64,000 nt of DNA from Ensifer sp. Root278 (GTDB taxonomy: Bacteria > Pseudomonadota > Alphaproteobacteria > Rhizobiales > Rhizobiaceae), in NCBI RefSeq assembly GCF_001429285.1, contig NZ_LMJJ01000023.1, positions 1 through 64,000 on the forward strand, in the 5' to 3' direction. This document shows positions 21,932 to 34,759 of the stretch, in pieces. The notes under the pieces were generated by a model. It had not been told where the DNA came from. It saw only the letters and a list, made by a program, of their open reading frames with translations, and searched no databases. Both the position numbers and the translations under genes were made by a program. How positions within the stretch are numbered: the first letter of the stretch is position 1; every line of letters begins with the position of its first letter.

Positions 21932-22203
21932 TCGGGCAAACCGCATGGACGCACGGTGACCGTTCAGTCGCCGCCGCCATCTCCACCGCCGCAATCGCCG
22001 CCACTGTCACCGGCAAAGACGACGCCGGCATCGCCGGAACCATCGTCCTTGCGCGCCTTGGCGTCCGGCTCGCGCCGGGCATTGCGGGCGGCCCAGAACA
22101 GGGCGGCCACCACCACCGCGACGATCACAACCACCCAGAAAACTATCTCGCTCAAATCCTGACCCCATCCGCGGTCGACACACTCAAGGGTAATCGGCGA
22201 TGA
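21928..22203 (+). CDS. Candidate linking ORF between phnI and phnJ
   Basis: This 91-codon frame overlaps phnI by 4 nt at its start and phnJ by 4 nt at its end, exactly as a coupled operon gene would. The product is Ala-rich with a His/Asp-rich patch (GGHHHRDDHNHPENY) and fits no C-P lyase protein I know. The His patch is the complement of a Val-rich run on the other strand, so it may be a by-product of an antisense membrane-protein frame. Whether it is real is open. Confidence 0.35.
   Translation: MIGQTAWTHGDRSVAAAISTAAIAATVTGKDDAGIAGTIVLARLGVRLAPGIAGGPEQGGHHHRDDHNHPENYLAQILTPSAVDTLKGNRR
21964..22155 (-). CDS. Candidate antisense small membrane protein
   Basis: A 63-codon minus-strand frame in the same spacer encodes a convincing single membrane helix (IVFWVVVIVAVVVAALFWAA), a basic stop-transfer patch (RNARREPDAKARK) and a Gly/Asp-rich tail (GGDCGGGDGGGD), a layout I have seen in small alphaproteobacterial proteins. 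Its only start is TTG at 22155, with AGGA just 1 nt away, which is too close to work well. Either this or the plus-strand frame may be real, probably not both. Confidence 0.35.
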   Translation of the reverse strand: MSEIVFWVVVIVAVVVAALFWAARNARREPDAKARKDDGSGDAGVVFAGDSGGDCGGGDGGGD

Positions 22204-23078
22204 ACGACCTTGCTACTTATAATTTCGCCTATCTGGACGAACAGACGAAACGCATGATCCGCCGCGCCATCCTGAAGGCGATCGCGATCCCCGGGTACCA
22301 GGTCCCCTTCGCCTCACGCGAAATGCCGATGCCCTATGGCTGGGGCACCGGCGGCGTCCAGGTCACCGCTTCGATCCTCGGGCCGGAAGACGTGCTGAAG
22401 GTCATCGACCAGGGCGCCGACGACACCACCAACGCCGTCTCGATCCGCGCCTTCTTCCAGAAGGTCGCCAATGTCGCCGTCACCACCCGGACAAAGGAGG
22501 CGACGATCATCCAGACGCGCCACCGTATTCCCGAGGAAAAGCTCTCGGAAGGCCAGACGCTCGTCTACCAGGTGCCGATCCCGGAACCCTTGCGCTTCCT
22601 CGAACCGCGCGAGACCGAAACACGCAAGATGCACGCGCTTGAGGAATACGGGCTGATGCATGTGAAGCTCTACGAGGACATCGCCCGCAACGGCCATATC
22701 GCCACGACCTATGCCTATCCGGTCAAGGTCGAGGGCCGTTACGTCATGGACCCTTCGCCGACACCGAAGTTCGACAATCCGAAGATGCACATGTCGGAGG
22801 CGCTGCAGTTGTTCGGCGCCGGCCGCGAAAAACGCATCTATGCGGTGCCACCCTACACCGACGTCGTCAGCCTCGACTTCGACGACCATCCGTTCGAGAT
22901 CCAGAGCTTCGACAAGCCCTGCGCACTCTGTGGTGCCGAGGACGTCTATCTCGACGAGGTCATCCTCGACGACAAGGGCGGGCGCATGTTCGTCTGCTCC
23001 GACACCGATCATTGCGAAGACCGCCGCGCCTGCGGCCATGCAGGTCACATGCTCGCCCGAAAGGAGGCCGCAGAATGA
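22200..23078 (+). CDS. phnJ: C-P lyase radical-SAM subunit PhnJ
   Basis: The subunit that breaks the carbon-phosphorus bond of ribose-1-methylphosphonate-5-phosphate using a 4Fe-4S cluster and S-adenosylmethionine. The 292-aa chain shows the exact PhnJ cysteine spacing C-x2-C-x21-C-x5-C (CALC, then CSDTDHC) in its C-terminal part and the glycine-rich PYGWGTGGVQVT segment. The ATG overlaps the stop of the linking frame, and the stop overlaps phnK (ATGA). Confidence 0.96.
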   Translation: MNDLATYNFAYLDEQTKRMIRRAILKAIAIPGYQVPFASREMPMPYGWGTGGVQVTASILGPEDVLKVIDQGADDTTNAVSIRAFFQKVANVAVTTRTKEATIIQTRHRIPEEKLSEGQTLVYQVPIPEPLRFLEPRETETRKMHALEEYGLMHVKLYEDIARNGHIATTYAYPVKVEGRYVMDPSPTPKFDNPKMHMSEALQLFGAGREKRIYAVPPYTDVVSLDFDDHPFEIQSFDKPCALCGAEDVYLDEVILDDKGGRMFVCSDTDHCEDRRACGHAGHMLARKEAAE

Positions 23079-23851
23079 GTACCCTCCCGCTTCTGAAAGT
23101 GAACGACGTCTCGAAGTTCTACGGAAGCCGCATCGGCTGCCGCAACGTCTCCTTCGAGCTTTACGCGGGCGAAGTGCTCGCCATCGTCGGCGAATCCGGC
23201 TCCGGCAAGACGACGTTGCTCTCGTGCCTCTCGACCCGGCTGATGCCGACCTCGGGTATCGTCGAGTACCATATGCGCGACGGTCAGTACCGTGATCTTG
23301 CCCGCATGGGCGAATCGGAACGCCGCTTCCTGATGCGCACCGACTGGGGCTTCGTTCATCAGAACCCGGCCGATGGCCTGCGCATGACGGTCTCGGCCGG
23401 CGCCAATGTCGGCGAACGACTGATGGCCGTCGGCGATCGTCACTATGGCAACATTCGCGCCACCGCCAGCGACTGGCTGGAGCGGGTGGAAATCGGCGTC
23501 GATCGCATCGACGACCAGCCGCGCGCCTTCTCCGGCGGCATGCGCCAGCGCCTGCAGATCGCCCGCAACCTCGTCACCTCCCCACGCCTCGTCTTCATGG
23601 ACGAGCCGACCGGCGGTCTCGACGTGTCGGTGCAGGCACGCTTGCTCGACCTGGTGCGCGGGCTCGTGCATGACCTCGGCCTTGCCGCTGTTATCGTCAC
23701 CCACGACCTTGCCGTCGCCCGCCTGCTTTCACACCGCATGATGGTGATGAAGGATGGCGCAGTCATCGAACAGGGACTGACCGACCGGGTGCTCGACGAT
23801 CCGCGCGAGCCCTATACCCAGCTCCTCGTCTCCTCGATCTTGCAGGTGTAA
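23075..23851 (+). CDS. phnK: C-P lyase ATPase PhnK
   Basis: A 258-aa ABC-type ATPase that binds the C-P lyase core through PhnJ. Motifs seen are Walker A (GESGSGKTT), the signature FSGGMRQRLQIARNL and Walker B (RLVFMDEPTGGLD). The start at 23075 overlaps the phnJ stop by 4 nt; the longer open frame upstream lies inside phnJ. It belongs to the dipeptide-transporter-like ATPase branch, but no permease genes are nearby, as expected for PhnK. Confidence 0.94.
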   Translation: MSTLPLLKVNDVSKFYGSRIGCRNVSFELYAGEVLAIVGESGSGKTTLLSCLSTRLMPTSGIVEYHMRDGQYRDLARMGESERRFLMRTDWGFVHQNPADGLRMTVSAGANVGERLMAVGDRHYGNIRATASDWLERVEIGVDRIDDQPRAFSGGMRQRLQIARNLVTSPRLVFMDEPTGGLDVSVQARLLDLVRGLVHDLGLAAVIVTHDLAVARLLSHRMMVMKDGAVIEQGLTDRVLDDPREPYTQLLVSSILQV

Positions 23852-23854
23852 ATC

Positions 23855-24562
23855 ATGGCTACGCCCCTCGTTGTTTCCGAAGTCGCAAAAAGCTTCACCA
23901 TGCACCTGCGCGACGGCGTCCGCCGGCCCGTCGTCGCCAACGTCTCCTTCTCGGTCAAGGCAGGCGAGTGCGTTGTTCTCGGCGGCCCCTCCGGCGTCGG
24001 CAAGAGCTCGATCCTGAAAATGCTCTACGGCAATTACGGCGTGGACGAAGGCCAGATCCTGATGGATCACGACGGCAAGCTGGTAAACCTGGCAACGGCC
24101 GAGCCGCGCACCGTGCTTGAGGTCCGGCGCACGACGCTCGGTTATGTCAGCCAGTTCCTGCGTGTCGTGCCCCGTGTCTCCGCTCTCGACATCGTCGCGG
24201 AACCCTTGCAGGCCCGCGGCACCCCGATCGAAGAGGCGCGTGCGCACGCGGCGGAACTCTTAAGCAAGCTCAACCTGCCGCGCGAACTCTGGAGCCTGCC
24301 ACCAGCCACCTTCTCCGGCGGCGAGCAGCAGCGCGTCAACATCGCCCGCGGCTTCATCACCGACCACAGGATCCTGCTGCTCGACGAGCCGACCGCATCG
24401 CTCGACGCCAAGAACAGGGCCGTCGTCGTCGAACTGATCGCTGAGAAGAAGGCGAAGGGTACGGCGCTGATCGGCATCTTCCACGATGAGGAGGTCCGCG
24501 ACGCCGTTGCCGACCGCATTCTCGACGTCTCGGCCTTCTCGCCGCGAAAGGCTGCCGCATGA
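23855..24562 (+). CDS. phnL: C-P lyase ATPase PhnL
   Basis: A 235-aa second ABC-type ATPase of the C-P lyase complex, needed with PhnGHI for forming the ribose phosphonate intermediate. It has Walker A ([10 protein letters not shown]), the signature [15 protein letters not shown] and Walker B ([12 protein letters not shown]). It starts 3 nt after phnK and its stop overlaps the next gene by 4 nt (ATGA). Confidence 0.94.
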
Positions 24563-25173
24563 GCCAGAAGCTTGGGCTCGAGCCCTTCATCCATCCGACG
24601 GCGAGCGTCAACAATTCGACGTTCGGCCGCTATACTGAAGTGCAGGAGCGTTCGCGGCTCGACGAGGTCGAGTTCGGCGACTATTCCTACATCATGCAGG
24701 ACGGCTCGATCTGGTGCGCGACGATCGGCAAGTTCGTCAACATCGCCGCCGCCGTGCGCATCAACGCCACCAATCATCCGACCTGGCGCGCGACGCTGCA
24801 CCACTTCACCTACCGCGCACCGAACTATTGGGATGATACCGAACTCGACCACGACCTCTTCGCCTGGCGACGATCGAACCGGGTGACGATCGGTCACGAC
24901 GTCTGGATCGGCCACGGCGCCACCATCCTGCCTGGCGTCACCGTCGGCAATGGCGCGGTGATCGGCGCCGGCGCCGTCGTCTCCAAGGATGTCGAGCCCT
25001 ACACCATCGTCGGCGGCGTCCCCGCGAAGCTCATCCGCAGCCGTTTCAACGAAGGTATTGGCGAGCGGTTGGACACGCTCGCCTGGTGGGACTGGGACCA
25101 CCAGCGCCTGCGCCGCGCGCTTGACGATTTCCGCGAACTGACGGCCGAGGAATTTCTGGTGCGCTACGCATAA
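24559..25173 (+). CDS. Hexapeptide-repeat acyltransferase of phosphonate operons
   Basis: A 204-aa left-handed beta-helix protein with hexapeptide repeats ([34 protein letters not shown]) and the C-terminal [13 protein letters not shown] typical of the xenobiotic acetyltransferase group. Such proteins recur in alphaproteobacterial phn operons and are sometimes labelled phosphonate metabolism transferases; their reaction is not firmly known. It overlaps phnL by 4 nt and is the last gene before a strong hairpin, so the operon ends here without phnM or phnN. Confidence 0.85.
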
Positions 25174-26536: not shown

Positions 26537-26913
<377 letters not shown>

Positions 26914-28632
26914 TCAGGCCTTCGCCGATTGCAGCAGGAACCCGCCGGCAATTCGCGCCGTCAACGCCAGCGAGACGGCGCCGGCGTCGGGGTGACCGAT
27001 GCTCTTTTCGGCGAGCGGACGGGCGCGGCCAAGCTTCGGCGTCAGGCTGGAAGTCGCCTCTGCGGCGGCGGTCGCGGCCTTGGCGGCAGCCTGCCACGCC
27101 TCGATCAGACGCTTGCCGGCGGCAAACTCACGCTCCAGGGTTTCGACAAAGGGCACCAGCGCATCGACGAGAGTCTTGTCGCCGACGCGTGCACGGCCGA
27201 GGCGCGTGACGCCATCGAGGGCGCGGCGTGCGCCATCGACGATGGTGGCGTCCGAGGGCGCCGTCTCGTCGTCGAAAGCATTGCTCCACGAACGCAGCAA
27301 CAGACCCCAGATCGCACCCGACGTGCCGCCGGCGCGATCCGCCCAGGCATCGCCCGCCGCTGCCAGGACGCTTGCAGCGCCGGCGCCGGCCGCGACCGCC
27401 GTCTTTGCCGCCTCGTCGGCTGCGGCGGAACCGCGGCGCATGCCCTGACCGTGGTCGCCATCACCGGCGAAGGCGTCGATACGGCCGAGTTCGTCTTCCG
27501 CCTCCTTCAACGCTTCGGCAATCTCGCCAATCAGTCGGGCAATGCACTTGCCGCTCTCCTTCGAAGCATCGGATGCGGGGGCAAACATCTGCGGGCCGTC
27601 CTCGACCTTGATCTCTTCGGTCGCGGGCTCGGCCGCGATGATCGCGCCCTTGCGCAGCACCGGCGCATCGCACGGCGCGCGCCAATAGGTCTCAAGCTCA
27701 TCGTTCAGCCACATCAGCGTTAGCGAGCAGCCCTGCATGTCCAGGCTGGTGACGAATTCGCCGCATTCGGGATCGACGATCTCGAGGCCGGCCGCCTTCA
27801 GTTCCTTCTCGACCGCGACCCAAAGCACGAAGAGTTCCTCGTATTTCGTCGAGCCGAGACCGTTCAGGACAGGCGCAACTTTGCGGACATCCGCCGGGCG
27901 TTCGGCCAGCAGCTTGCCGACCAGAAGCTTGGCGAACTCGCTCGCCGAAACCATCTTTTCTTCGCAGATGCCCGGCTCGCCGTGGATGCCGAGGCCAAGC
28001 GCCATCTCGCCCTTCGGCACGGCAAAGAGCGGTGCCTTGGCGCCCGGAAGCGTACAGCCGCCAAAGGCCACGCCGAAAGAAACGGTGCGGTCGTTGGCAA
28101 GGCGAGTGACGCGCTCGACCTGATCCAGGTTAAGGCCGGCTTCGGCAGCAGCGCCCGCGATCTTGAAGACCACGAGGTCGCCGGCAATACCGCGGCGCTT
28201 GGAAGGCGTTTCAGCGGAAGCGCTGGCAACGTCGTCCGTCACCGGCACGATGCGCACGTCGATGCCTTCAGCGCGCAGGCGCTCGGCAGCGACGCCGAAG
28301 TTCAGGACGTCACCGGCGTAGTTGCCGAAACCGAGCAGCACGCCACCGCCCTGATCGGCCTGGCGGCAGACGCGGGCAACGGCCGCGGTCGAGGGAGAAG
28401 CGAAGACATCGCCGGCAACGGCGGCATCCGCCATGCCCGGGCCGACATAGCCGGCAAAAGCGGGGTAGTGCCCGGAGCCGCCGCCGATGACGACAGCGAC
28501 CTTGCCCTTCGGCACCTGGGTCGAGCGAACGACACCGCCCTTCACGAGACGGACGTTGCGCGCGTAAATCGAACTGAAGCCGGCAAGCGCGGTCGTGGCG
28601 AACTCTTCCGGTGCGTCAAAGATTGTGGTCAT
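26914..28632 (-). CDS. DhaK-DhaL fused kinase (dihydroxyacetone-kinase family)
   Basis: A 572-aa ATP-dependent kinase of the DAK family. The N-terminal DhaK domain has GGGSGHYP (51-58) and H217 in GIHGEPG, the residue that binds the keto substrate covalently. The C-terminal DhaL domain has D386 and D391-G-D393-H-G, the aspartates that bind Mg-ATP. It is the single-chain ATP type, not the PTS-coupled type. The neighbours are a TIM-barrel isomerase-like protein, a tricarboxylate-type transporter and a PdxA homologue, not glycerol genes, so the substrate is more likely a ketotetrose such as erythrulose or a related sugar-acid intermediate than dihydroxyacetone. Confidence 0.88.
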   Translation of the reverse strand: MTTIFDAPEEFATTALAGFSSIYARNVRLVKGGVVRSTQVPKGKVAVVIGGGSGHYPAFAGYVGPGMADAAVAGDVFASPSTAAVARVCRQADQGGGVLLGFGNYAGDVLNFGVAAERLRAEGIDVRIVPVTDDVASASAETPSKRRGIAGDLVVFKIAGAAAEAGLNLDQVERVTRLANDRTVSFGVAFGGCTLPGAKAPLFAVPKGEMALGLGIHGEPGICEEKMVSASEFAKLLVGKLLAERPADVRKVAPVLNGLGSTKYEELFVLWVAVEKELKAAGLEIVDPECGEFVTSLDMQGCSLTLMWLNDELETYWRAPCDAPVLRKGAIIAAEPATEEIKVEDGPQMFAPASDASKESGKCIARLIGEIAEALKEAEDELGRIDAFAGDGDHGQGMRRGSAAADEAAKTAVAAGAGAASVLAAAGDAWADRAGGTSGAIWGLLLRSWSNAFDDETAPSDATIVDGARRALDGVTRLGRARVGDKTLVDALVPFVETLEREFAAGKRLIEAWQAAAKAATAAAEATSSLTPKLGRARPLAEKSIGHPDAGAVSLALTARIAGGFLLQSAKA

Positions 28633-28645
28633 CGCGTCTCTTCCC

Positions 28646-29584
28646 TTATTCGCGAGGCAGAATGCGCCTCAGATAGTCCCGGTTGGCAGCGCTGACGGAG
28701 AGGCCGTCGCCGCCGTAATGTTCGCAGAGGAACGGGCTGTTGAAGCCGTGGGCAAGCGCCATTCGGATCGCGGCGCGGTAGTTGATCACACCGAACTCCA
28801 GCGGCGCAGGATGGGTAACGATCAGGCCCGACGTTTCGTCCTCGGTGCGGTAGTAGTTCTTGACGTGCCAATACTTCGCGAAGGGAGCAACCTTGGCCAT
28901 CATCTGCTGCCAGTGCTCGACCGGACGGTGCAGGCGAACGAGGTTGCCCAGATCGGCATTGATGCCGACGTTCGGCAAGCCGACATCGGTGACGAAGCGC
29001 ACGGCACTGTCGGCCGAGCCGATATAGGTATCCTCGTACATTTCGAGCGCCAGCTCGATGCCGAGTTCCTCGGCATGACGGCCAAGATCACGAATACGCT
29101 GAACGGCCTTCTGCCAGGTGGCGGGCTCGTCGGGGTTCTTGACGCCATCGACGGTCCAGAACCACAGCGCCTTCTTCTGCGCGTCAGTCAGCGGGCCAAA
29201 AAAGCCGAAGGAAACGGAGCCCGCACCGATGGCGGCCGCTGTTTCAATGACCCGGTGGCCGTAGGCAAGATACTCGTCGCCATGCTCCGGGTCGATCACG
29301 CTGCGCCGCGCAGTCGAGATCGCCGGCATGGTGAGGCCGAGGTCATGGGCGAGCTTGACGAAGCTGTCGAGCCGATCCGGCGAAAGGTCAGCAAGCCGGA
29401 TCCAGCTGTCGGTGGGGTCGAGTTCGGTGAAGCCGGCATCGACCACATCGGCGAGCGTTTCTGCCCATTGCTCGACCGATTGCTCCTGCACCGAACTGCC
29501 GTCGGCCAGCACGTTTGGATATTGGATCATGGCGGCCGCGATCGGCCAGGTTTCACGGGTCCATTTGCGCGATGTGTTCGCCAT
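28646..29584 (-). CDS. Xylose-isomerase-like TIM-barrel protein
   Basis: A 312-aa protein of the AP-endonuclease-2/xylose isomerase-like TIM-barrel superfamily. Candidate metal ligands are the glutamate in LALEMYEDT, the aspartate in GINADLGN, the histidine in YWHVKNYY and the glutamate in FLCEHYGGDG. The family includes sugar epimerases, hydroxypyruvate isomerase-like enzymes and 3-oxo-isoapionate decarboxylase, which supplies L-erythrulose to a DAK kinase in apionate pathways. It lies 13 nt before the DAK kinase gene. The ATG at 29584 is preceded by GAGGA; the longer frame is not supported. The exact reaction is unknown. Confidence 0.8.
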   Translation of the reverse strand: MANTSRKWTRETWPIAAAMIQYPNVLADGSSVQEQSVEQWAETLADVVDAGFTELDPTDSWIRLADLSPDRLDSFVKLAHDLGLTMPAISTARRSVIDPEHGDEYLAYGHRVIETAAAIGAGSVSFGFFGPLTDAQKKALWFWTVDGVKNPDEPATWQKAVQRIRDLGRHAEELGIELALEMYEDTYIGSADSAVRFVTDVGLPNVGINADLGNLVRLHRPVEHWQQMMAKVAPFAKYWHVKNYYRTEDETSGLIVTHPAPLEFGVINYRAAIRMALAHGFNSPFLCEHYGGDGLSVSAANRDYLRRILPRE

Positions 29585-29628
29585 GACCTTCCTCGTCGTC
29601 TCTGGATGTTGGGGGTGCGGCGGCTCCG

Positions 29629-31167
29629 TCAAGCCGCCGCGCTGCCGTCACCATGCGGGGCATCCGCATTATGCTTGCGCTTGCGAACCAGGCCGATCAG
29701 CCCGAAGACAAGCGGCGACAGCAGGAGTGCAAGAGCGAGCGCCATCAGAGAGGAAACCAGCGGGTTCGACCAGAAGATATCGAGGGTGCCGCCTGAAAGC
29801 AGCATCGACTGGCGGAAGGCATCCTCGGCCTTGTCGCCGAGCACCATGGCAAGCACCAGCGGCGCCAGCGGGTACTCGAGCTTCTTGAAGACATAGCCGA
29901 GCACGCCGAAGCCGATGACCAGGAAGATGTCGGAGACCGAGTTTGCCACCTGGTAGGCGCCGGAGAAGATGACGGCGACGATAATCGGGCCAATGATCGC
30001 AAAGGGCACGCGCAGGATCGAGGCGTAGAGCGGCACGGTGGCGATCACCAGGAACACGGCGACGACGTTGCCGAGATACATCGAGGCAATCAGGCCCCAG
30101 ACGAAGTCCGGCCGCTCGGTAAAGAGCATCGGGCCGGGCGTCAGACCCCAGATCATCAGGCCGCCCATCATGACGGCGGCCGTTGCCGAGCCGGGAACGC
30201 CGAGCGCCAGCATCGGCAGCAGCGCCGAGGTACCGGCGGAGTGGTCGGCGGTTTCCGGTGCCACGACGCCACGCGGATCGCCCTTGCCGAACTTCGACTT
30301 GTCGCGCGCCGAGCGACGGGCAACGCCGTAGCTCATGAAAGAGGCCGCCGTCGGGCCGGCAGGCGTGATGCCCATCCAGATGCCGATGATCGTCGAGCGC
30401 AGGATCGTGAACCAGTAGCGTGGGATCTCGATCAACGTGCGGCCGATCTCGACGAGCTTGACGCGCGCCTTGATGCCCTCGAATCGCAGGCCTTCTTCCG
30501 TGGTCAGCAAGAGTTCGCCGATGCCGAAGAGGCCCATGACGGCGATCAGGAAGCTGACGCCCTTGATCAGGGTCGGGATATCGAAGGTAAGCCGCAGGTC
30601 ACCGGAGATCGTGTCCATGCCGACGGAGGCAAGCGCAAAGCCGAGCATCATCGACACGAGCGTCTTGAACGGCGATTGCGCACCCATGGAAATGAAGCTG
30701 GCGAAGGCCAGGAAATAGACCGCGAAATATTCCGGGGACGAAAAGCGAAGCGCGAAGTTCGCGACCCAGCCGGAGAGCAGCGTGATCATGACGACGCCGG
30801 CGAGCGCGCCGATGCCGGCAGACACGAAGGCGAGCGTCAGCGCCCGGCTTGCCTGCCCGGCTTTCGCCATCGGATAGCCGTCGAAGGTCGTCGCGACCGA
30901 CGAAGGTTCGCCGGGAATGTTGAAGAGGATCGATGTGGTCGACCCGCCGAAGAGTGCGCCCCAGTACATGCAGGAGAGCAGGATGATGGCGGAGATCGGA
31001 TCCATCGAGAAGGTCAGCGGCAACAGCAGCGACACGCCGTTCGGCGCGCCGAGGCCCGGCAGCACGCCGACGAGAATGCCGAGCGTGACGCCGACCATCA
31101 TCAGCAGGATATGGTTCCAGCTGAGGATGTGGCCGAAGCCATCGATCAGAAGACCGATATTTTCCAT
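29629..31167 (-). CDS. tctA: Tripartite tricarboxylate transporter large membrane subunit (TctA)
   Basis: The 512-aa TctA component, with about 11-12 membrane helices, forms the main channel of a binding-protein-dependent secondary transporter for carboxylates. Typical motifs are GVLPGLGAPNGVSLLLPLTF near residue 35 and the central GITPAGPTAASFMSYGVARR, the duplicated PGxGxxxG signatures of the family. GGGAGG precedes the ATG at 31167, so the much longer open frame is not used. It lies 34 nt after tctB in the same operon. The ligand is an organic acid; the context suggests a sugar acid. Confidence 0.92.
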   Translation of the reverse strand: MENIGLLIDGFGHILSWNHILLMMVGVTLGILVGVLPGLGAPNGVSLLLPLTFSMDPISAIILLSCMYWGALFGGSTTSILFNIPGEPSSVATTFDGYPMAKAGQASRALTLAFVSAGIGALAGVVMITLLSGWVANFALRFSSPEYFAVYFLAFASFISMGAQSPFKTLVSMMLGFALASVGMDTISGDLRLTFDIPTLIKGVSFLIAVMGLFGIGELLLTTEEGLRFEGIKARVKLVEIGRTLIEIPRYWFTILRSTIIGIWMGITPAGPTAASFMSYGVARRSARDKSKFGKGDPRGVVAPETADHSAGTSALLPMLALGVPGSATAAVMMGGLMIWGLTPGPMLFTERPDFVWGLIASMYLGNVVAVFLVIATVPLYASILRVPFAIIGPIIVAVIFSGAYQVANSVSDIFLVIGFGVLGYVFKKLEYPLAPLVLAMVLGDKAEDAFRQSMLLSGGTLDIFWSNPLVSSLMALALALLLSPLVFGLIGLVRKRKHNADAPHGDGSAAA

Positions 31168-31201
31168 GTCATTCCTCCCGGGAAAGCGTGGGCGGTCGGG
31201 A

Positions 31202-31702
31202 TCAGTAGATCCCGAACCAGGCCTCGACCGGTCCCTTGAGCAGGGGAACCTTGAAGCCGATCTCGAATACGATGAAGAAGAACAGCGAAACGGCGACGCC
31301 GGACGGCAACGCGATCCACCATTTGTAGCGCCCCTGGAAGAGCATCGTGCCGGCGATGTAGAGCGCCGTGCCGACATAGAGGCCGAGCCAGGCGGAAACG
31401 CCGGCAAAGGCGATCAGCGGCAACAGAAACGACGAGACCACCTTGGCACGGTGACCGTCGATGAAGATCTCACCCGTGCCGCGATGCTTGACGAAAGCGT
31501 GGATCGCATTCACGGCGCTTCCGAGAAGGATCAGAAGGCCGACATAGAAGGGAAAATAACCGGCTTCCGGCCCGAATTCGGTCCATCCCGCACCGATATC
31601 GAGGGACCCGTAGCAGACCGCCGCGCCAAAGGCGCCGGTCAGCGCAGCAACGCCAAGCTCAACCGCGAAGCGGGAGACCCCATTCGCACCGTTCTCGCTC
31701 AT
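31202..31702 (-). CDS. tctB: Tripartite tricarboxylate transporter small membrane subunit (TctB)
   Basis: A 166-aa protein with four predicted helices and little sequence conservation, as usual for TctB. It sits between the binding-protein gene and tctA, in standard order. The hydrophobic segments LGVAALTGAFGAAVCYGSL, FPFYVGLLILLGSAVNAI, FLLPLIAFAGVSAWLGLYVG and a final WIALPSGVAVSLFFFIVFEI support the topology. Confidence 0.88.
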   Translation of the reverse strand: MSENGANGVSRFAVELGVAALTGAFGAAVCYGSLDIGAGWTEFGPEAGYFPFYVGLLILLGSAVNAIHAFVKHRGTGEIFIDGHRAKVVSSFLLPLIAFAGVSAWLGLYVGTALYIAGTMLFQGRYKWWIALPSGVAVSLFFFIVFEIGFKVPLLKGPVEAWFGIY

Positions 31703-31727
31703 GATCGTGACCTTTCAAAGCGAATGA

Positions 31728-31747
31728 CGGGTGCCCGAAGGCACCCG
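31728..31747 (-). promoter_or_regulatory. UUCG-capped hairpin between tctC and tctB
   Basis: On the minus strand CGGGTGCC and GGCACCCG form an 8-bp stem closed by a TTCG tetraloop, 16 nt past the tctC stop and 25 nt before tctB. Its position suits partial termination or protection of the tctC message from 3' decay, giving more binding protein than membrane subunits. Confidence 0.65.
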
Positions 31748-31763
31748 CCTCAATGTCCTGCCC

Positions 31764-32750
31764 TTAGTTGGCGAGCCAGCCTTCGCGCTTCAGCACTTCG
31801 CCGACAGCAGCGCCGTCCATCTCGATGGCGGCCTTGAAATCGTCGCCAGCGATGTAGGAGGGGGACTGCGAGGTGTCGGCGAGGTACTTCGCCCATTCCG
31901 GCGTTTCCGAAACCTTGCGCATCAGGTCCGCATAGAACTTGACCACATCCTGGTCAACGCCGGCCGGCAGCCAGACGGTGCGCGGCATCGAGTAGTTGTC
32001 GATGGCGATGCCCGATTCCTTGCAGGTCGGAATATCGCTCCAGCCCTTGTCACCGGCGACCTTGGCGTCGTTCGAAAGCTTGACGCTCTTGAAGACGCAG
32101 AGCGGCTTGACCATGCCGGCCTGCCACTGGCCGAGGTTTTCGCTCGGGTTGTTGACGTTGGCGTCGAGATGTTCGCCGGCAAGCTGGACGGCCGCTTCAC
32201 CGCCGCTCTTGAACGGGATGTAGTTGATCGTAGCACCAGTCACCTCGTTGATCATCGAGGTGAGGATCTGGTCGACGTCCTTGGACTGACTGCCGCCGAT
32301 CTTCAGGCCGCCTTCCTTCGCCTTGGCCGCAAAGTCGGCCGCCGTGTTGTAGGTGGCCTTGCCGTTGACCCAGAGAACGAATTCGTCGGAAGCGAGCGCC
32401 GCGACCGGGGTCAGGTCTTCAGCCTTGTACGGCACCTTGGCGCGAACCGGCAGCAGGTAGGCATTGTTCGTGCCGAAAGCGAGTTTGTAAGCGTCGCCCT
32501 TGTTGGTCGCCGTGTAGACGAAACCTTCGGCGCCGCCGGCGCTGCCCTTGTTGGTAACGACGACCGGAGCCTTCATCAGCTCGTACTTGCCGATGATCGC
32601 CTGGATCGTGCGGGCGAAGATGTCGGTGCCGCCACCGGGACCTGCCGTGACGACGAATTCAACCGGGCGATCGGGTTCGAAGGCTGCGGCCGGAGCAGCA
32701 ACGCCGAAGACGGCTGCCATGATGCATGCGATGGAGACGGTATTCTTCAA
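31764..32750 (-). CDS. tctC: Tripartite tricarboxylate transporter periplasmic binding protein (TctC)
   Basis: A 328-aa periplasmic binding protein of the Bug/TctC family. The signal peptide (MKNTVSIACIMAAVFGVAAP, cleavage at AAA-FEP) is followed by the family's typical opening PDRPVEFVVTAGPGGGTDIF, whose glycine loop contacts the carboxylate of the ligand. It lies between the PdxA homologue and tctB. The ligand is not predictable beyond a small carboxylic acid. Confidence 0.93.
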   Translation of the reverse strand: MKNTVSIACIMAAVFGVAAPAAAFEPDRPVEFVVTAGPGGGTDIFARTIQAIIGKYELMKAPVVVTNKGSAGGAEGFVYTATNKGDAYKLAFGTNNAYLLPVRAKVPYKAEDLTPVAALASDEFVLWVNGKATYNTAADFAAKAKEGGLKIGGSQSKDVDQILTSMINEVTGATINYIPFKSGGEAAVQLAGEHLDANVNNPSENLGQWQAGMVKPLCVFKSVKLSNDAKVAGDKGWSDIPTCKESGIAIDNYSMPRTVWLPAGVDQDVVKFYADLMRKVSETPEWAKYLADTSQSPSYIAGDDFKAAIEMDGAAVGEVLKREGWLAN

Positions 32751-32825
32751 GTCGGGTCCTCCCGTTTTGTGGTTCTGTGGCGCAAGACCTCCTCCTGCGC
32801 CGTTATTGCGTGAAAGCGTGCGAAA

Positions 32826-33869
32826 TCAGGCGGCAGCCTTGAGAGCCGCCTTTTTCTTCGCCATGCGCACGGCGAGCAGCAGCGCTTCGCGGCTGGCGCC
32901 GACGTCGGCAATGCCCTTGCCGGCGATGTCGTAGGCCGTGCCGTGGGCCGGCGTGCAGAGCGCGAAAGGCAAGCCGCCCATCATGGTCACGCCCTTGTCG
33001 AAGCCCATCAGCTTCATCGCGATCTGGCCCTGGTCGTGATACATGGTGAGGACGGCGTTGTAGCCTTCCTTCAGCGCGCGACCGAAAACGGTATCGGCCG
33101 GGAAAGGTCCCTCGACGTTGAAGCCGAGTGCCTTCGCCTTTTCGACCGCCGGTTCGATGATGTCGATCTCTTCCATGCCGAAGCTGCCGCCGTCGCCGGC
33201 GTGCGGGTTGAGACCGGCAACCGCGATCTTCGCCTCTTCATAACCCGCCTCCGTGAGGCAGGCCCGGGTCAGCTCCAGCTCGGCGATGATACCGTCGACC
33301 GAGAGGTTGTCAGCCACGTCCTTGAGTGGAATGTGCGAGGTGACGCGGGCATTCCAGACCTTCTCGAGGACGTTGAACTCGCGAACCTTGCCGGTGAAGC
33401 CGAGAACGTCTGCGACGAAACGGATCTCGTCGTCATAGCCCGGATAGGCAAAGCGCATGGCCTTCTTGTTGAACGGCGTGAAGCAGACGGCGTCGGCCTT
33501 GCCCGTCTGCGCCAACTCGAGCGCCGTGCGGAAGTTCCGGGTGGCGAAAGTCCCGCCGGCGAGCGTCGCCTCGCCGCGAACCACGTCAGCAGGATCGAGG
33601 TGTGCGAGATCGACGAAAACGTGACGCGACGTTCCTGATTTGTCGAGGTCTTCGAGGGTCGAAGGCTCGAGGTCGAGCGTAACGCCTGCAGCCTTTGCGC
33701 CCTCATCCAGAATCCGGCGATCGCCGATGGTGATGATGTGCGCGGCTTCGCGGATATCGGAAAGCCCCAGCAGCTTTGCCGTGAGTTCCGGGCTGATACC
33801 CGCCGGATCGCCCATGGCGAGCGCGATGACAGGACGCGCGCCGTTACCGGCAACACCGTTGGTCGTCAT
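32826..33869 (-). CDS. PdxA-family dehydrogenase (PdxA2-like)
   Basis: A 347-aa NAD-dependent dehydrogenase of the 4-hydroxythreonine-4-phosphate dehydrogenase family. Metal-binding histidines are visible in TSHIPLKD, GLNPHAGDGG and MYHDQGQIAMK. Catabolic PdxA2 paralogues oxidise and decarboxylate 4-phospho-D-threonate or -erythronate to dihydroxyacetone phosphate. Here it heads a transporter/kinase operon and is divergent from a GntR regulator, so a catabolic role fits better than pyridoxine synthesis. The usual DUF1537 tetronate kinase partner is absent; the DhaK-DhaL kinase may replace it. The ATG at 33869 has GGAGG 9 nt upstream. Confidence 0.87.
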   Translation of the reverse strand: MTTNGVAGNGARPVIALAMGDPAGISPELTAKLLGLSDIREAAHIITIGDRRILDEGAKAAGVTLDLEPSTLEDLDKSGTSRHVFVDLAHLDPADVVRGEATLAGGTFATRNFRTALELAQTGKADAVCFTPFNKKAMRFAYPGYDDEIRFVADVLGFTGKVREFNVLEKVWNARVTSHIPLKDVADNLSVDGIIAELELTRACLTEAGYEEAKIAVAGLNPHAGDGGSFGMEEIDIIEPAVEKAKALGFNVEGPFPADTVFGRALKEGYNAVLTMYHDQGQIAMKLMGFDKGVTMMGGLPFALCTPAHGTAYDIAGKGIADVGASREALLLAVRMAKKKAALKAAA

Positions 33870-33917
33870 GTGAGATGTCCTCCGCTTCATACTTCCGATC
33901 GCTGTCATACGTTATTC

Positions 33918-33960
33918 AAAATTCTGCATCAAGTCTTTTGTATTCTGTATGCAGCATTTT
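33918..33960. promoter_or_regulatory. Inverted repeat, likely GntR operator
   Basis: AAAATTCTGCAT (33918-33929) and ATGCAGCATTTT (33949-33960) are inverted copies matching at 11 of 12 positions, 19 nt apart. They lie in the AT-rich region between the pdxA-like gene and the divergent FCD-type GntR regulator. This is the natural place for the regulator to control both directions. Confidence 0.55.
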
Positions 33961-34072
33961 CTGTTGACGACGGAAGAGCCGATCTCCATGCTTTAATGAG
34001 ACAGCGCTGATTCAATCGGCGCGAACGGGAACAGACGGTCGACGCCCTGTCGCCAGACGCAGAAGAAAAACA

Positions 34073-34759
34073 ATGAACGAAATCACATCTCTGGAGAGAC
34101 GGCCGGATGGCGGCCCTGGTCCGATCAGGCGCACGGCGCTGCACGACACGCTGGTCAGCCACCTGCGCGATATGATCATTGAAGGCGATCTATTGCCCGG
34201 AACCCGCCTGCACGAAGGTCAGCTTGGCGAACAGCTGGGCGTGTCGCGCACGCCGCTACGCGAGGCCATCAAGTATCTGGCAAGCGAAGGGCTGGTGGAG
34301 CTCGTTCCGAGCCGCGGTGCCGTCGTCAAGCGCTTCAGCGCCAAGGACGTGCACGACATGTTGACGGTCCTGCAGACGCTGGAAGAACTCGCCGGCAAGC
34401 TCGCCTGCGAGGCGGCAAGCGATGCCGGCATCGCCGAGGTGCGCGCGCTGCACGATGAGATGGTCCAGCGCTACAAGGCCGGCGACCGGCTGCAGTATTA
34501 CAAGCTCAACCAGCAGATCCATTCGGCGATCGTTCAGCTCGCAGCAAATGCTGCGCTGGCCGATATGCATGCCGTTCTGCAGACGCGGCTGAAGCGCATC
34601 CGCTTCATCGGCCACGAGGGGCCGGAAAAATGGGCCGCGGCCGTCTCAGAACATGAGGAGATGGTCGTGGCGCTCGAAGCCCGTAACAAGGCAAAGCTTT
34701 CCGAGGTGCTCGGCCGCCACCTGATGAACGCTTGGGAAAGGGTGCGCGACGCCGTGTAG
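34073..34759 (+). CDS. GntR-family (FCD) transcriptional regulator
   Basis: A 228-aa regulator with an N-terminal winged helix (EQLGVSRTPLREAIKYLASEGLVEL) and an all-helical FCD effector domain. Metal and ligand residues of FCD proteins are suggested by the histidines in ALHDEMVQ, NQQIHSAIV and HEEMVVALE. It is divergent from the pdxA2/tct/DAK operon and probably represses it until a pathway intermediate binds. An inverted repeat in the shared promoter region is the likely operator. Confidence 0.88.
   Translation: MNEITSLERRPDGGPGPIRRTALHDTLVSHLRDMIIEGDLLPGTRLHEGQLGEQLGVSRTPLREAIKYLASEGLVELVPSRGAVVKRFSAKDVHDMLTVLQTLEELAGKLACEAASDAGIAEVRALHDEMVQRYKAGDRLQYYKLNQQIHSAIVQLAANAALADMHAVLQTRLKRIRFIGHEGPEKWAAAVSEHEEMVVALEARNKAKLSEVLGRHLMNAWERVRDAV

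Follow-up and report, generated by a model that had tools for sequence, protein, structure and literature searches.

What substrate is handled by an operon that joins a tripartite tricarboxylate transporter to a PdxA-like dehydrogenase, a TIM barrel and a keto-sugar kinase, and in what order do its enzymes act? The question is raised by a locus at 26914..34759 in a 64,000-nucleotide stretch of DNA from Ensifer sp. Root278, the whole of which is referred to here as the window; it lies on contig C23 of a 7.1 Mb genome whose nearest named relatives belong to Ensifer/Sinorhizobium. As a preliminary description of this DNA had reported, and as the list of open reading frames (ORFs) of the window confirms, six co-directional genes on the minus strand are separated by short gaps of 13-75 nt and accompanied by a divergent FCD regulator, in the arrangement gntR|pdxA-tctCBA-TIM-DAK. 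Our answer, held at slightly under even confidence, is that the operon encodes a non-phosphorylative sugar-acid route to L-erythrulose and erythrose-4-phosphate, in which the TIM barrel would act as the decarboxylase. The seven genes and their Pfam scores are as follows.

34073..34759, plus strand: gntR, divergent FCD-type GntR regulator (PF00392, 66.4 bits; PF07729, 84.6 bits)
32826..33908, minus strand: pdxA-like dehydrogenase (PF04166, 282.5 bits; cut-off 27)
31764..32750, minus strand: tctC, periplasmic receptor of the tripartite tricarboxylate transporter (PF03401, 91.3 bits)
31202..31702, minus strand: tctB, small transporter subunit (PF07331, 63.4 bits)
29629..31167, minus strand: tctA, large transporter subunit (PF01970, 472.2 bits)
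28646..29584, minus strand: TIM, xylose-isomerase-like TIM barrel (AP_endonuc_2, PF01261, 102.1 bits)
26914..28632, minus strand: DAK, DhaK-DhaL fusion kinase (Dak1, PF02733, 376.1 bits; Dak2, PF02734, 162.2 bits)

The domains of all seven genes exceed the curated cut-offs, and those of TctA, TctB and TctC all lie within the one operon. The individual gaps are 75 nt (pdxA-tctC), 61 nt (tctC-tctB), 34 nt (tctB-tctA), 44 nt (tctA-TIM) and 13 nt (TIM-DAK). The start of the TIM gene is most likely the internal ATG at 29584, and not 29632 as in the ORF list, because the matches in relatives begin near there; the true start of the pdxA-like gene may also be an internal ATG, at 33890 or 33869. The domain scan bears out the earlier observation that a DUF1537 kinase is missing from the operon, and two DUF1537 genes are found elsewhere in the genome (contigs C10 and C43). 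The earlier view that the locus serves to take up and degrade a sugar acid, with a keto-sugar kinase in place of the DUF1537 enzyme and a likely link to chemistry of the OiaC/LerK type, is supported.

In the proposed route, TctCBA would bring in a sugar acid that most likely has five carbons, be it a pentonate or a branched compound such as isoapionate. The PdxA-like enzyme would oxidise this acid at C3 in its unphosphorylated form, producing a 3-oxo (beta-keto) acid from which the metal-dependent TIM barrel would remove CO2 to leave L-erythrulose. DAK would then convert L-erythrulose to L-erythrulose-1-phosphate, and TpiA-like and RpiB-like isomerases of the LerI/DerI type would carry this to D-erythrose-4-phosphate; such isomerases are encoded elsewhere in the genome under study, and two close relatives carry them within the operon itself. 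GntR would control the gene set from a single operator. The sequences themselves show the gene set, its conservation, the residue loss in PdxA and the joining of TIM-DAK to the erythrulose isomerases; the separate reactions, the number of carbons in the acid and its identity are what we infer. That L-erythrulose, or its phosphate route, is the node fed by DAK appears fairly probable. The wider claim, that the PdxA branch represents a non-phosphorylative sugar-acid 3-dehydrogenase opening an undescribed route that leads from a C5 acid to L-erythrulose and erythrose-4-phosphate, with a xylose-isomerase-like protein as its decarboxylase, is advanced tentatively and with clearly less than even confidence.

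The gene set is conserved. TIM is present in 16/16 same-genus genomes, that of the window included, against 0/45 other genomes of the same sample, and in 5/397 genomes drawn from the phylum, again including its own; the operon is therefore not a chance assembly. A scan of named genomes returned 491 relatives, of which the best 80 were retained, so that the survey covers the closer ones; with eight added loci (Streptomyces, Arthrobacter, two Paracoccus plasmids and four further genomes of the phylum) this gives 88 loci, some of them cut by contig ends. PdxA, TctA and DAK are all found near TIM in 59/88 loci, and singly in 64, 61 and 71, respectively. In 70 of these 71 loci a script scored DAK as lying directly downstream of TIM and on the same strand; the 71st (L132, minus strand) agrees by its coordinates. 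A hydroxy-acid dehydrogenase is found near TIM in 83/88 loci, but its type varies: it is PdxA-like in 64, DenD-like in 16 and of the 3HCDH family in 15, with two types in some, and all three are absent from five loci (L027, on a cut contig, L057, L079, L094 and L105). The PdxA-like partner occurs in Rhizobiaceae, Brucellaceae, Aurantimonadaceae and Paracoccus, among others; the DenD-like partner in Asaia, Acidisoma, Propionivibrio and Gluconacetobacter; and the 3HCDH partner in Arthrobacter and two genomes of another proteobacterial class. In the Streptomyces locus L105 the partner is a HIBADH-type protein, found with a GntP permease. Since the dehydrogenase varies while TIM-DAK stays, TIM probably acts on what a hydroxy-acid dehydrogenase produces and supplies the substrate of DAK. 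The PdxA branch is found in alpha- and betaproteobacteria; in actinobacteria the same TIM-DAK core stands behind other dehydrogenases. In two loci from another proteobacterial class (L129, 8171-11619; L130, 9040-10988) TIM has a 3HCDH enzyme as its partner and lacks a neighbouring DAK, and in L129 a GntP permease lies upstream of TIM.

The position of the oxidation step is addressed by the residues of the PdxA-like enzyme. From the UniProt list, we take H136, T137, K274, N283 and R292 of PdxA (E. coli numbering) to be substrate residues, some of which may contact the phosphate, and we take H166, H211 and H266 to be the metal ligands. An alignment of 60 rows was obtained from 80 loci by keeping matches that cover >75% of the query and dropping shorter ones. 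Positions 136, 137 and 283, which are H, T and N in PdxA, are E, I and T in 60/60 rows, and the R at 292 is replaced by L in 59 and by I in one. The three histidines and K274 are retained in every row, and all eight residues are kept in 8/8 rows of the PdxA/PdxA2 type (E. coli, contigs C34 and C43 of the same genome as the window, 2hi1, 6e85, 4jqp, Pantoea and R. leguminosarum). At the four lost positions the terephthalate-diol dehydrogenases of solved structure (4aty and 8zj3/8zhy) carry Y, P and A, then either F or L, and in two plasmid proteins, called dihydrodiol-dehydrogenase-like from their aromatic-ring dioxygenase neighbours, the four residues are lost or gapped. Because the loss parallels that in terephthalate-diol dehydrogenases, which use unphosphorylated acids, the PdxA-like enzyme probably acts on an unphosphorylated sugar acid, before the kinase step, and the branch as a whole seems to have switched to phosphate-free substrates.

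As read from these alignments, the signature of the branch is DE[IL] for GHT, T for N283 and L, I or V for R292. The same pattern is seen in distant members from Methylobacterium, Paraburkholderia, Burkholderia, Paracoccus and one genome of another class, two of which have L at 137 and one V at 292. A tree separates 21 rows of the branch from 10 others with support of 100/100, and is used as description only because the tool warns that long branches meet. The family models place the protein below both of the cut-offs concerned, as it scores 255.7 bits with the PdxA equivalog TIGR00557 (cut-off 290.35) and 197.3 bits with NF002891, the PdxA2 (D-threonate-4-phosphate dehydrogenase) model (cut-off 583). 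On the model score the protein is thus no PdxA2, and the operon holds no DUF1537 partner for such an enzyme. The branch genes of M. nodulans and P. graminis adjoin genes for amidohydrolase-family and major facilitator superfamily (MFS) proteins, and that of P. graminis also adjoins an L-rhamnonate-dehydratase-like gene. In two loci (L101, 7004-9059; L102, 7980-13768) a PdxA from this branch is accompanied by amidohydrolase-family and MFS genes, and L102 additionally has an L-rhamnonate-dehydratase-like gene; no TIM is found among the matches listed for the plasmids of these two organisms, and their loci probably serve other sugar acids.

The fate of the product is suggested by isomerase genes. 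In bacteria such as Brucella, the LerI and DerI steps are performed by TpiA-like and RpiB-like proteins. Such proteins, the former called Tpi2 here, are each found in 9/88 loci, against 0.36 expected for RpiB if its copies were scattered (30 copies in 24 genomes, with 138.7 Mb summed by hand). One or both stand within the TIM-DAK gene run in 9/88 loci from seven lineages: Ensifer/Sinorhizobium, Gluconacetobacter, an Accumulibacter metagenome-assembled genome (MAG), an Acetobacteraceae MAG, Arthrobacter, Streptomyces and one further genome. Pfam confirms the seven Tpi2/RpiB genes that were scanned. The arrangements in these nine loci are listed below, followed by that of L068.

L031 and L037 (Sinorhizobium/Ensifer): PdxA-TctCBA-TIM-DAK-Tpi2-RpiB
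L094: RpiB-Tpi2-TIM-DAK
L096: PdxA-MFS-Tpi2-RpiB-TIM-DAK
L092 and L099: DenD-MFS-TIM-DAK-RpiB-3HCDH-Tpi2-MFS-FMN dehydrogenase
L138: TIM-DAK-RpiB-3HCDH-MFS-Tpi2
L105: TIM-DAK-RpiB
L132: TIM-DAK-Tpi2-3HCDH
L068: Tpi2-RpiB pair nearby, on the opposite strand

It is this joining of Tpi2 and RpiB to TIM-DAK that leads us to propose a route through L-erythrulose to erythrose-4-phosphate. The genome under study has a TpiA-like and RpiB-like pair at C40:280506-281712, unlinked to the operon, in a locus that also contains an FGGY kinase, a class II aldolase and an EryC-like protein. RpiB itself is found in 24/24 TIM genomes examined, and 22/24 of these, as counted by eye, have an RpiB and a TpiA-like gene within ~4 kb of each other. 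In PMC10733421, LerK is given as the L-erythrulose 1-kinase, and LerI with DerI as converting L-erythrulose-1-phosphate to erythrose-4-phosphate.

DAK combines Dak1 and Dak2 domains with the covalent-binding His217 that the preliminary description had pointed out; both H55 and H217 are conserved in 68/68 rows covering >500 residues. It reaches 760.2 bits with NF011049 (cut-off 492) and 387.6 bits with the glycerone-kinase equivalog TIGR02361 (cut-off 574.95), and is proposed to be an L-erythrulose kinase. TIM is proposed to be a 3-oxo-acid decarboxylase yielding L-erythrulose, and in the NCBIfam scans no model named OiaC (3-oxo-isoapionate decarboxylase) appeared among the matches. Structure comparisons of TIM and of the PdxA-like protein confirm their folds and are uninformative on substrates. 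The Mycobacterium smegmatis TIM-barrel protein 5tnv has an entry title that states no function, and its code was not found in openly licensed (CC0/CC BY/CC BY-SA) papers.

Two other identities for TIM were rejected. As OtnI, the 2-oxo-tetronate isomerase, it gives no match to NF043033 at E 0.001, whereas YgbM scores 394.5 bits. As EryC, the erythrulose-1-phosphate epimerase, it was compared by BLASTP with the EryC-like protein of contig C40, which we presume to be such from gene order (Pfam confirms PF01261); the best segment spans 17 residues at E 5.0, and no relative of that protein is found in the 88 loci.

Several explanations compete with the erythrulose route. A four-carbon route was our first working model: the PdxA-like enzyme (or DenD, or 3HCDH) would oxidise a tetronate, TIM would decarboxylate, perhaps after isomerising, to dihydroxyacetone, and DAK would form dihydroxyacetone phosphate (DHAP), with no isomerases needed. 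It was demoted to a rival because Tpi2 and RpiB were found inside TIM-DAK clusters; DHAP would not need the isomerases joined to TIM-DAK in those nine loci. The score of DAK below the glycerone kinase cut-off and the C4-acid genes already present on C10 and C43 also speak against it. Several findings, conversely, weigh against the five-carbon route, and the first of them favour a four-carbon acid. Genes named for the use of C4 acids occur near TIM, with OtnK in 6/88 loci (L065, L071, L074, L092, L099, L137), OtnC in 5/88 (L071, L074, L089, L092, L099), and LtnD and OtnI in 2/88 (L092, L099). In two Gluconacetobacter, LtnD-OtnK-OtnC-OtnI adjoin DenD-MFS-TIM-DAK; OtnK and OtnC occur together in one Rhizobium and one Rhizobiales locus (L071, L074); and the Paracoccus TOH operon has genes annotated as 3-oxo-tetronate kinase and aldolase. 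The DenD-like partners pass the D-erythronate dehydrogenase cut-off (NF043036) in 3/3 tested, and 3/16 TIM genomes are without a DUF1537 kinase, so that TIM is independent of that kinase. These neighbours, the DenD result and the three genomes keep the four-carbon route alive, and under it the window operon would lack nothing; even so, we consider it rather unlikely. There are further points against the erythrulose route: DAK was not found near TIM in 17/88 loci (some on cut contigs), most operon copies, that of the window included, are without isomerase genes, and a Tpi2-RpiB pair is in any case expected in rhizobia for tetritol use.

The decarboxylation may also be misplaced. The products of PdxA and PdxA2 lose CO2. 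TphB too, according to the title of its report, decarboxylates its own product, and such losses would leave TIM without a decarboxylation to perform. The PdxA-like enzyme might then oxidise and decarboxylate its substrate to D-erythrulose, with TIM as a ketose 3-epimerase that converts D- to L-erythrulose, or their 1-phosphates as EryC does, ahead of DAK and the isomerases. TIM carries what we take to be the core residue pattern of ketose 3-epimerases, a further point for this view. It is nevertheless improbable in our judgement: TIM persists with 3HCDH or HIBADH-type dehydrogenases, which are not known as decarboxylases, its identity to ketose 3-epimerases is 11-19% in a structure comparison covering the listed families, and BLAST detects no similarity between it and the EryC-like protein encoded in the same genome. 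The preliminary description had envisaged a third order, in which TIM isomerises or decarboxylates, DAK phosphorylates, and the PdxA-like enzyme then oxidises the phosphorylated acid. PF04166 membership and the PdxA2 precedent would suit this order, but the loss of four substrate residues from every row of the branch, parallel to TphB, and their retention in the PdxA/PdxA2-type rows do not support it. DAK-type kinases, moreover, act on ketoses, and acids with a C3 hydroxyl that has yet to be oxidised are not their substrates; we regard this order as very improbable indeed.

The erythrulose route can be set beside several known systems. The closest described route known to us is the D-apionate route ApnO-OiaC-LerK-LerI-DerI reportedly set out by Carter et al. 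in 2018. Both would decarboxylate a 3-oxo acid to L-erythrulose and continue through a DAK-type LerK, LerI and DerI; the operon differs in its PdxA-like oxidation and TctCBA, and its six genes include no lactonase or apiose dehydrogenase. The portions available of PMC11747546 and PMC6302742 mention only phosphorylative apiose branches. With the D-threonate pathway the operon would share the PdxA fold and C3 oxidation of a sugar acid, but it has no DUF1537 kinase and has lost H136, T137, N283 and R292. That pathway is said to consist of DtnK (DUF1537) and PdxA2 (Zhang et al. 2016). That study is cited in PMC9997740. The L-threonate/D-erythronate pathway, with LtnD or DenD, OtnI, OtnK and OtnC (PMC12540250 and PMC10580937), resembles the operon in sugar-acid uptake, a dehydrogenase, a xylose-isomerase-like TIM protein and decarboxylation; unlike it, the operon has a TIM that fails the OtnI model and a kinase of the DAK type. 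TphB (8zhy, 8zj3, 4aty) likewise applies the PdxA fold to an unphosphorylated hydroxy acid, with the same four residues replaced and K274 kept, but identity is 27-28%, and its two plasmid relatives have dioxygenase neighbours where sugar-acid genes are found here. The genome under study has separate DenD, OtnC, LtnD, Hyi/OtnI and OtnK-like genes on C10, and on C43 a DUF1537 kinase near a PdxA with phosphate-type residues, and the operon is thus an extra route in this genome. No paper assigning a substrate to the gene set was found among the openly licensed literature.

Were free sugar acids the substrates of this branch, the naming of its annotated copies after the vitamin B6 enzyme would have to change, and the short residue signature would distinguish it. 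Given that TIM occurs throughout the same-genus genomes sampled and the operon is found in named root-nodule symbionts, the acid may be one commonly met in plants or soil. The laboratory strain Sinorhizobium meliloti 1021 has its own copies of the PdxA-like, TIM and DAK genes (locus L100). Should TIM prove to be an OiaC, only the transporter, the regulator and the PdxA-like entry step would still be new.

Two non-coding elements accompany the genes.

33918..33960, strandless: probable operator, an imperfect inverted repeat AAAATgCTGCAT-N19-ATGCAGaATTTT, between gntR and pdxA
31726..31749, minus strand: stem-loop of 10 pairs between tctC and tctB, from a terminator-like scan

The 10-mer AATGCTGCAT occurs in 50/55 gntR-pdxA regions compared, that of the window included. 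At <=3 mismatches the operator 25-mer has a single site in the whole genome (reversed control, 0), and its pattern was found 0 times in window shuffles. The natural reading of this arrangement is a local FCD-GntR switch acting through one putative operator. A sigma-70 promoter scan of the region returned a single site, which equals the count in shuffles and lies outside the operator. Terminator-like sites number 9 in the region against 6.8 in shuffles, and a perfect stem of >=7 pairs is present in 26/47 tctC-tctB gaps of relatives; the stem-loop may stabilise tctC mRNA and so favour the receptor, a function that we infer.

A DRL-type protein (PF21135), perhaps an ApnO-type oxidoisomerase, is encoded near TIM in 12/88 loci. 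NCBIfam assigned no family to the two proteins tested, and a DRL search of the genome under study gave no match, with controls equally silent, so that no inference is drawn. A second unit that contains TctABC and DRL is present in Rhizobium-type loci (L068, L069, L071, L072, L074, L075, L076 and L103), on the strand opposite PdxA-TIM-DAK; in some it includes an extra PdxA of the same branch or OtnK/OtnC; DRL in these units was annotated or BLAST-matched, and is absent from the listing of L103. In some Ochrobactrum/Brucella-type contigs (L057, 7900-9400; L062, 6873-7861; L088, 4909-12658) operon genes are fragmented or missing, owing to decay or sequencing error.

A perfect dinucleotide tract, (AG)23.5, lies at 26823-26869 of the window, 44 nt past the DAK stop codon; a 24-nt CT/AG tract was found in 0 of the 141 loci examined. 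Beyond the end of DAK, the ORFs at 22200-25173 presumably resemble C-P lyase (phosphonate) genes, as judged by position. In S. meliloti RCAM1115, the operon likewise adjoins an acetyltransferase gene and phnL-phnG.

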